DNA from: a virus
IMG/VR virus record: IMGVR_UViG_3300018080_000048
Location: 1-44,117 of that record
Strand: one strand, 5' to 3'
Length of the DNA stretch: 44,117 bases
In this document: one piece after another, positions 15,358 through 16,547 of the stretch
Position numbering within the stretch: position 1 is the stretch's first letter
Layout: every line of letters starts with the position of its first letter
Position numbers and translations under genes: made by a program
The notes under the pieces: generated by a model
The model's input: the letters and a program-made list of their open reading frames with translations, nothing else
Database searches by the model: none
Told to the model about the DNA's origin: nothing

Positions 15358-15539
15358 GACCGTGGTCAAGGAAGTTCGGGGACGAGTTCTTCACAGCGGT
15401 TCGTGAGGGAGTTGGTCTCAGTCTTCTCAAAGGGGAGAACCTGAATGAGAAGGAGTTCGTAGAGGCAGCAGTTCTGGAGAAGACCCAAAATATGAAGGAG
15501 GATTTTTATGGCGAGAGAACAGATACGATGGAAAAGTAG
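15354..15539 (+). CDS. Small unknown protein
   Basis: 61 aa, GTG start at 15354 coupled to the previous stop (GTGA). Begins MRPWSRKFGDEFFTAVREG; helical. The last 10 codons overlap the start of the next gene. No family recognised. Confidence 0.55.
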   Translation: MRPWSRKFGDEFFTAVREGVGLSLLKGENLNEKEFVEAAVLEKTQNMKEDFYGERTDTMEK

Positions 15540-16146
15540 TGAGGGAGTCGAGTCTGGGTTTGATGCTATTGAGGTTATTGAGGGAGATGTTGTGTTCATG
15601 GACATTGTGGACAACCCGTGGCCGAATAGTACGAACCCGAAGGATCAACTCAAGATTACGTTGGAGAACTTCGAGGTTATTGAGTTGAACGGTGATATGC
15701 CGAATATTAAGGAGGATGTGTTTGACATATATATACCGTATGCCAAGGCTGGGGAAGAGCCGAAGAAGAATAGTTTCTTCATGAAGCACTTCCTGACTAG
15801 TGCCGAGGAGTTGGGGCTGAGTATGCCTGTGACTGACATACGGGCGCGCTTTCGGCGGAAGACTGTAGGGTTTGGAAAGGACGCTGACGGTGAACGCATA
15901 CAGACGACTAAGTATGTGTTTGACAGCGTGTGTGAGAACGGTCACGCTGAGTTGAGCGATGAGTATGTACAGCAACTTCTTGTCGATAAAAAGGTCAGTG
16001 TGGTGAAGAGGACGTTGATGAGTGATCCGAAGACTAAGAAGGACAAGGATATCATTGCCTCGGCCAAGGCTGACATAGATGCGTTCTTGGACAGTGTAGG
16101 GTTAGTTGACATTGACGGTGTAGTTGCACTGGTTGATGAAGGATAA
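15508..16146 (+). CDS. Unknown protein of the recombination module, possible ssDNA-binding protein
   Basis: 212 aa from ATG at 15508, AAGGAGG upstream. The first 130 residues are beta-rich (GDVVFMDIVDNPWPNST, QLKITLENFEVIELNG, DVFDIYIPYAKAGEE, DIRARFRRKTVGFG). This could be an OB-like barrel with basic and aromatic residues. The rest is helical and acidic at the end. It is the first gene of the block that leads to Cas4-like, Sak4-like and polymerase genes. In phages Sak4-type recombinases are often accompanied by an SSB, so a single-strand binding role is a reasonable guess, not shown. Confidence 0.6.
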   Translation: MAREQIRWKSSEGVESGFDAIEVIEGDVVFMDIVDNPWPNSTNPKDQLKITLENFEVIELNGDMPNIKEDVFDIYIPYAKAGEEPKKNSFFMKHFLTSAEELGLSMPVTDIRARFRRKTVGFGKDADGERIQTTKYVFDSVCENGHAELSDEYVQQLLVDKKVSVVKRTLMSDPKTKKDKDIIASAKADIDAFLDSVGLVDIDGVVALVDEG

Positions 16147-16155
16147 GTAATTGAT

Positions 16156-16306
16156 GGGGGCTGTGGCGGAATAGGTAGACGCTAGTTGTAACCGTTCAGC
16201 AACAAGCCTGACGTGAACGTGTGCAGGTATGCAGGGTGACTATACGAGTATACCAAGAACGTTTGAAACATAACGGGCTTGCTCGGCAAATCCCTGTCAG
16301 CCCCCA
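16156..16306 (+). ncRNA. tRNA-Leu-like RNA with expanded arms (about 150 nt)
   Basis: Perfect 8-bp closing stem GGGGGCTG (16156-16163)/CAGCCCCC (16298-16305), followed by A. Directly after the 5' strand comes TG and GCGGAATAGGTAGACGC (16166-16182), matching a bacterial tRNA-Leu D-arm. The next stem is GCTAGTTG/CAACAAGC with an 11-base loop. The 3' end has CAAATCCCTG, the usual 3' half of a T-arm, and a matching CAGGG lies at 16232-16236, but about 50 bases separate them instead of a 7-base loop. This may be a tRNA-Leu with an insertion in the T-loop, a decayed tRNA, or a tRNA-derived structural RNA. The whole 16147-16328 gap has no gene. Confidence 0.5.
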
Positions 16307-16328: not shown

Positions 16329-16547
16329 ATGCCAATCTATACATACAGATGTCTGTCGTGTGGTCATGAGGAAGATTTTTTAGTGCCTGATATGGAGACT
16401 CCAAAGGCTTGCCCGTCTTGTGAGGGGGAGACTGTGCCGTTGTTCCCCGGTGTTAATGTCATATACAAGATGGCCGGGTTCTACACGACGGACAACCGGA
16501 AGGTGAAGGAGTATGATGAAAAGACGGGGTTGCCTAAGATTTGGTAG
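16329..16547 (+). CDS. FmdB-family zinc-ribbon protein
   Basis: 72 aa, ATG at 16329. MPIYTYRCLSCGHEEDF with CPSC about 22 residues later is the standard FmdB/CxxC_CxxC_SSSS zinc-ribbon start, including the usual MPxYxYxC opening. The remainder is a short tail (FYTTDNRKVKEYDEKTGLP). Its length is typical. Members are thought to be small regulatory or zinc-binding proteins, with no settled function in phages. It follows the tRNA-like RNA and opens the replication/recombination module. Confidence 0.8.
   Translation: MPIYTYRCLSCGHEEDFLVPDMETPKACPSCEGETVPLFPGVNVIYKMAGFYTTDNRKVKEYDEKTGLPKIW

Follow-up and report, generated by a model that had tools for sequence, protein, structure and literature searches.

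Locus and anatomy of the RNA

The stretch of DNA analysed here (the window) is the 44,117-base IMG/VR virus record IMGVR_UViG_3300018080_000048. The element under study is a tRNA-like RNA encoded on its plus strand at positions 16155-16306, which is a member of a large phage RNA family that neither Rfam nor ARAGORN recognises. The plus-strand genes of the window include those for a DNA polymerase, a metallophosphoesterase and an ERCC4-type nuclease, and a terminase gene lies on the minus strand. The RNA nearly fills a gap of 182 bases between two genes of its own strand, with only 8 and 22 nucleotides (nt) left at its two ends. Its parts and immediate neighbours are listed below, where lengths of stems are given in base pairs (bp) and those of proteins in amino acids (aa).

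15508-16146, plus strand: upstream gene, 212 aa, no family found
16155-16306, plus strand: whole tRNA-like RNA, type 2 with T-loop insert; 109.2 bits, E 5e-29 with covariance model R1, the window itself being one of the sequences used to build R1
16155-16163, plus strand: 5' strand of the closing stem, TGGGGGCTG; perfect 9 bp with 16298-16306
16164-16182, plus strand: U8 (16164) and tRNA-Leu-type D-arm (16165-16182), TGGCGGAATAGGTAGACGC; near-invariant in alignments A1 and A2
16166-16168/16180-16182, plus strand: D-stem; pairs in 100% of cells in both alignments
16183-16230, plus strand: variable domain occupying the position of the anticodon and variable arms; H-type pseudoknot predicted
16231-16236, plus strand: 5' strand of the T-stem, GCAGGG, 6 bp, one more than in tRNA; pairs with 16292-16297, paired in 30/30 relatives
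16237-16248, plus strand: invariant module TGACTATA followed by CGAG (16245-16248)
16249-16281, plus strand: variable T-loop insert, 33 nt in the window and about 5-98 nt in relatives; often, not always, a pseudoknot
16282-16291, plus strand: CTCG (16282-16285, pairs with CGAG) and GCAAAT, the second half of the T-loop; CGAG/CTCG paired in 30/30 relatives
16292-16297, plus strand: 3' strand of the T-stem, CCCTGT
16298-16306, plus strand: 3' strand of the closing stem, CAGCCCCCA; no CCA encoded after the stem
16329-16547, plus strand: downstream gene, 72-aa zinc ribbon (PF09723)

The original prediction for this locus had described a tRNA-Leu-like RNA with a perfect closing stem, a tRNA-Leu-type D-arm and an interrupted T-arm. 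All three were confirmed, the last of them with CAGGG at 16232-16236 and, after an interval of 50 bases, its partner within CAAATCCCTG (16287-16296). The small stems that had been proposed within the extra bases, TTGC/GCAA and TATAC/GTATA, were not conserved; relatives pair CGAG with CTCG, and TATA sits within an invariant internal loop. The fold of the RNA strand beat 197 of 200 shuffles (z -2.4). No tRNA was called at the RNA by ARAGORN, it was not recognised by the tRNA model RF00005, and no Rfam family matched it at gathering or permissive thresholds (E up to 10 for RF02924). Neither an intrinsic terminator nor a promoter was found at the RNA above background.

A phage RNA family with covarying stems

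Relatives of the window RNA were found in dozens of unrelated phages, with a common frame consisting of a covarying closing stem, U8, the D-arm GGCGGAAUAGGUAGACGC and a 6-bp T-stem. In type 2, the form present in the window, an insert carrying the nearly invariant module UGACUAUA-CGAG ... CUCG-KCAAAU interrupts the T-loop. The full order of elements is closing stem, T, GGCGGAAUAGGUAGACGC, variable segment, (A)UGCAGGG-UGACUAUA-CGAGU, variable insert, CUCGK-CAAAU-CCCUGC and closing stem. Because the collections were scanned with exact patterns, member counts are lower bounds, and most members are metagenomic contigs. In the scan of IMG/VR viral contigs, the exact 15-mer GGGTGACTATACGAG of the interrupted T-loop was present in 67 stretches at 68 places, and its partner CTCGKCAAATCCC, with no more than two differences, followed downstream at 64 of these; one of the remaining four reaches the contig end and three look like chance. 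Use of the opposite side of the module (TACGAGT..CTCGKCAAATCCC) as the query returned 31 stretches, 28 of which also held the exact 15-mer. The recurrence goes far beyond chance, and the near-invariance of the 15-mer is more than a product of the search.

Covariation was assessed in an alignment of 30 type 2 members (A1). Pairing was seen in 97.9% of cells, compared with 79% in column shuffles and 41-46% with slid partners, and 127 cells had changed on both sides, compared with 36 in shuffles. In the closing stem, all eight of the pairs tested showed two-sided change. The original prediction had named a closing stem not conserved in relatives, or stems disrupted by uncompensated changes, as evidence against itself, and it withstood this check. 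The CGAG/CTCG stem is nearly invariant in A1; divergent paralogues change it in step, to CGGG/CCCG or TAGGA/TCCTA, or have no stem. With covariance model R1, several different copies were detected in some phages.

A second form, type 1, has a closed T-loop (UGCAAAU) without the insert and is shorter than type 2. The D-arm followed by GYAGGGTG, used as a query, matched 106 stretches, and most of the 80 listed were type 1. This form is frequent in Lactobacillus plantarum phages and has one representative in Bacillus phage phi3T. Annotation pipelines miss the family, nearly all of the matched Lactobacillus phage records having no annotated feature at the match. An alignment of 33 type 1 members (A2) had 96.8% of cells paired, with 119 two-sided changes compared with 39 in shuffles. 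As the G after U54 is common to types 1 and 2, the simplest reading is an insertion between T-loop positions 55 and 56.

The window RNA is thus almost certainly a conserved structured RNA. Of the origins proposed for it at the outset, a decayed tRNA is ruled out by the strong compensatory change and the near-invariant loops across many phages, and the data support the conversion of a tRNA into another structural RNA. A BLAST search of INPHARED with the window sequence gave only D-arm matches to tRNA-Leu, or noise; the module consensus matched a single uncultured phage there (MW202647) and nothing among plasmids. No description of this RNA family was found in the literature searched.

Unusual tRNA-like genes were also noted beside type 1 RNAs. 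In two L. plantarum-type phages, genes of 58-60 nt adjoining the RNA (L116:2288-2345 and L126:8160-8219) combine well-formed acceptor, D- and T-arms (42-45 bits with RF00005) with only about 8 nt at the place of the anticodon arm, and amount to armless mini-tRNAs. Just upstream of the type 1 RNA at two further loci (L120:3709-3804 and L141:10417-10514), ARAGORN called a tRNA about 97 nt long that has an anticodon of four bases and no assigned identity.

Comparison with tRNA-Leu and other tRNA-like RNAs

Comparison shows that the RNA retains the acceptor-like stem, D-arm and T-arm of a class II (leucine) tRNA. Features shared with bacterial tRNA-Leu are U8, the D-arm sequence, the elbow residues G18G19, U54, C56 and A58, and the class II layout, and the elbow-forming residues of the D-arm and T-loop are among the invariant positions of A1 and A2. 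Unlike bacterial tRNA-Leu, the phage RNA has no anticodon arm and a pseudoknot in its place, a T-stem of 6 bp, a closing stem of 7-26 bp, G rather than U or pseudouridine at position 55 in most members and, in type 2, the T-loop insert. A five-pair anticodon arm with U33 was present in none of 106 domains, and four of five pairs with U33 in eight (4/59 type 1 and 4/47 type 2), whereas all nine control tRNA-Leu genes had an anticodon arm. Sequential hairpins were preferred to a pseudoknot in 9/9 of these controls. The sixth T-stem pair was always present in A1 and A2 and was seen in none of the nine controls. Across the family, closing stems mostly comprise 7-26 contiguous pairs, lower counts arising where the fixed register of the script was interrupted by a mismatch.

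Given the D-arm and T-arm of tRNA-Leu type, and the location near true tRNA genes in some phages, the element might be taken for a functional tRNA-Leu gene, either unusual or intron-bearing. This is hardly credible, as the element lacks an anticodon arm with U33, has a sixth pair in its T-stem, varies in the length of its closing stem and shows no encoded CCA. At about 5-98 nt, the insert seems too short to be a group I intron, a reading that was considered and dropped. The originally proposed option of a tRNA with a T-loop insertion holds as anatomy, the insert indeed lying in the T-loop, and fails as a full account, since the anticodon arm is absent, the T-stem has its sixth pair and a pseudoknot is usual instead.

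A transfer-messenger RNA (tmRNA) was likewise considered and dropped. Like tmRNA, the family has tRNA-like ends without an anticodon, plus pseudoknots; unlike tmRNA, it has a different D-arm, and its domain seems too short and variable to encode a conserved tag. No tmRNA was called by ARAGORN or Rfam, and the variable domain was unalignable and of very different length, no separate search for a tag peptide being made. Plant-virus tRNA-like structures form the 3' terminus of RNA genomes and undergo aminoacylation. The phage RNA, by contrast, is an internal gene of DNA phages without a CCA end. Common to the phage RNA and the plant-virus structures, such as that of turnip yellow mosaic virus, are the viral origin and the joining of a tRNA elbow to pseudoknotting (PMC4810234).

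Predicted pseudoknot and hypervariable domains

In the window, the domain that stands where a tRNA has its anticodon and variable arms is predicted to form a pseudoknot from stems S1 (16193-16198 with 16214-16219, CGTTCA/TGAACG) and S2 (16206-16210 with 16224-16228, GCCTG/CAGGT). Its score of 26.8, compared with a shuffled mean of 16.2 (p ~0.03, 30 shuffles), is modest evidence taken alone, and the real support comes from a family-wide test in which the 3' strand of S2 was required to end beside the T-arm and dinucleotide shuffles served as the null. Scores were 25.7 for type 2, compared with 18.5 in shuffles (Wilcoxon p 3e-8), and 21.6 for type 1, compared with 15.8 (Wilcoxon p 2e-5). This enrichment exceeded that of sequential or nested alternatives, nested pairing being enriched as well. 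The predicted pairings suggest that an H-type pseudoknot usually takes the place of the anticodon and variable arms. For a pseudoknot within the T-loop insert, support was partial (38% of inserts at p up to 0.1).

The variable domains change rapidly. Flanking DNA identity is 88-97% between the window and its relative L003, and 92-98% among three actinobacterial-type relatives; in close relatives the conserved blocks are identical or nearly so, whereas the variable domains differ in both length and sequence. Across five close pairs, nine of the ten variable segments were no more alike than shuffled sequence, the exception being the middle domain of the window and L003 (0.78 vs 0.63 shuffled). 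In two otherwise different phages (L019:7514-7588 and L054:1338-1412), the T-loop inserts were 89% identical and the middle domains were unrelated. From this combination of a common insert and different middle domains, we infer that the variable domains may be exchanged as cassettes through the short conserved blocks. In five actinobacterial-type elements (L009, L016, L034, L055 and L073), the RNA was located within a noncoding region extending from about 440 nt upstream to 300 nt downstream, in which further conserved stems surround hypervariable loops, for example GTAGTGCTGGTAGT..GCTACTAGCACCAT and CTATGTAAG..CTTACATAG.

Diversified loops within a fixed frame, as likewise found in plasmid incompatibility RNAs, could also point to an RNA-RNA specificity element, the hypervariable loops of which would pair with targets in superinfection control or as guides. 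No excess complementarity to the own genome was seen (longest match 11 nt, compared with 10-12 nt in shuffles), and the loop bases are largely taken up by the pseudoknot, making such a role very unlikely. It was also considered that the near-invariant loops might form the active site or aptamer of a catalytic or ligand-binding RNA, with the variable domains peripheral, as is typical of ribozymes and riboswitches. The 15-nt module is indeed kept beyond pairing needs. However, the T-loop module is absent from type 1, the conserved D-arm matches that of tRNA-Leu and there is no expression platform or conserved downstream gene, so that this alternative is decidedly unlikely.

Distribution and genomic context

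Besides viral contigs, four GTDB genomes from two phyla were found to contain members of the family, namely Antrihabitans, Arthrobacter, a Brocadia metagenome-assembled genome (MAG) and a Pirellulales MAG, each with one or two copies, weak tRNA-Leu-like matches aside. A core cellular RNA was rejected: apart from G032 itself, 395 further actinobacterial genomes gave no type 2 match over the full length, nor did 293 further planctomycete genomes. The weaker matches in G032 comprised true tRNA-Leu and one divergent tRNA-like copy. This copy, in an actinobacterial genome (L223:1501-1623), has a 6-bp T-stem, no obvious anticodon arm and a normal T-loop (TTCGAGT), and is possibly an intermediate form.

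Neighbouring genes lay on the same strand as the RNA in 120 of 144 cases. No recurring partner gene was found near the RNA, YopX and terminase genes recurring at a few loci only. Some copies are located inside tRNA arrays; in Gram-positive phages, other copies lie close to late activators and terminase genes. As a standalone intergenic gene, mostly in sense orientation and with no common partner gene, the RNA therefore probably acts in trans.

The mostly sense orientation, together with the tight intergenic fit in the window, would also suit a cis-acting punctuation or leader element, the tRNA-like fold of which would recruit RNase P or another tRNA-processing nuclease to cut the polycistronic transcript, or would control the downstream gene. 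The late activators and terminase genes among the neighbours in Gram-positive phages are consistent with such a role, and tRNA mimics are known to recruit RNase P (PMC4810234). Nevertheless, it is judged unlikely. There is no conserved downstream gene, several different copies may occur in one phage or copies may lie inside tRNA arrays, and punctuation would need neither the pseudoknot nor the invariant UGACUAUA module. The stack also measures 13-15 bp instead of 12.

Relationship to skipping-rope RNA

Immediately after HU (yonN), the phage vB_BsuS-Goe14 carries an annotated skipping-rope RNA (RF02924), a class described in Rfam 14 as containing a pseudoknot (PMC7779021). When the SPbeta locus downstream of yonN/HU was aligned, two alleles were observed within conserved flanks. 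The type 1 allele is present in phi3T, SPbetaL1, SPbetaL4 and BUCT083, with no match to the RF02924 model there, and a skipping-rope-like allele in Goe14, SPBc2 and SPR. Among these SPbeta phages, the RF02924 model matched Goe14 only, at 31.3 bits and thus under the cut-off of 36.7. In SPBc2 (NC_001884.1), the apparent skipping-rope-like RNA downstream of yonN, at about 60,580-60,830, is unannotated and sub-threshold for the Rfam model. Across 40 records tested, the RF02924 model did not match the family RNAs, its single match being a separate RNA in a phage carrying both. In one phage (L062), a type 2 RNA is clustered with two tRNAs and a skipping-rope RNA that scores 58.7 bits.

The two classes share a small RNA gene in phages, a closing stem (about 8 bp in skipping-rope RNA), a D-arm-like hairpin, a pseudoknot with a variable region, and an AUG ahead of a T-arm-like hairpin stacked on the closing stem, with the elements in the same order. 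They also share, as shown for type 1, the same locus in SPbeta phages. The D-arm-like hairpin of skipping-rope RNA reads GGAAAgGGcag, compared with GGAAUAGGUAG in the phage tRNA-like RNA, and its D-stem has 5 bp rather than 3. Its T-loop is AaagGCcgc rather than UG..CAAAU, and it has no T-loop insert. The allele replacement at the SPbeta locus demonstrates interchangeability of place. We infer from it a common function and descent with skipping-rope RNA, although it could instead reflect an insertion hot spot. Our conclusion is that the window RNA and its relatives form a new variant within a class of phage tRNA mimics that resemble skipping-rope RNA. The pseudoknot, the RNA family and the link to skipping-rope RNA all go beyond what the original prediction saw. 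The swap between type 1 and skipping-rope RNA at a single SPbeta locus makes the function of this orphan RNA class directly testable in Bacillus subtilis.

A candidate non-decoding tRNA mimic

Taken as a whole, the best explanation is a phage-encoded, non-decoding tRNA mimic, to which a probability of about 0.4 is assigned. More tentatively, this mimic may act in trans through its elbow, as a decoy or inhibitor of a host tRNA-binding factor. The RNA would be transcribed together with the flanking phage genes, would probably be trimmed by tRNA-processing enzymes and would fold into a tRNA-like elbow. It could then occupy a host factor that reads the tRNA elbow and the acceptor/T stack while being unusable in translation, the factor being most plausibly a tRNA-directed defence effector or a tRNA-processing enzyme. 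Cassette exchange of the knotted domain would reflect a need for continual change, so as to match or escape its partner, and the mimic would belong to one functional class with skipping-rope RNA, as a variant of it.

Partners that read the tRNA elbow include RNase P, RNase Z and the ribosome. Viral tRNA-like structures, one of them joining the elbow to pseudoknotting, hijack such factors, and RNase P, the ribosome and synthetases can all be engaged by mimicry of this kind (PMC4810234). Furthermore, the tRNA-Tyr of phage T5 resists retron-Eco7 via its distinctive variable loop (PMC13096335). Such a target would suit a class II mimic that carries a rapidly changing knot instead of its variable and anticodon arms, and for this reason the decoy or inhibitor model is placed first, with cis punctuation next. 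Several points weigh against it. No partner protein or defence system was linked to the RNA, and the T-stem and closing stem together form a stack of 13-15 bp, compared with 12 bp in tRNA. Without an anticodon, the RNA cannot bait anticodon nucleases. The location also varies (early genes, tRNA arrays, near terminase), and a cis role is possible at some loci.

A broader proposal, somewhat unlikely in its entirety, is that pseudoknotted tRNA mimics (this family together with skipping-rope RNA) in phages of several bacterial phyla would be RNA factors of counter-defence or competition, with cassette exchange on conserved tRNA-like blocks and an arms race with tRNA-reading host factors. Should the decoy idea prove true, phage counter-defence would gain an RNA tRNA mimic. 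The family also joins three topics that have been treated apart, namely the odd tRNA-like features of phage genomes, skipping-rope RNA, which has lacked an explanation, and the hypervariable loci of phages. Other orphan Rfam RNAs were observed in phages that carry members of the family: DUF3800-VIII RNA at L208:2858-2923 in phi3T, the same phage that holds a type 1 RNA, and abiF RNA at L077:1402-1438 in a Manatee Spring phage also carrying a type 2 RNA.
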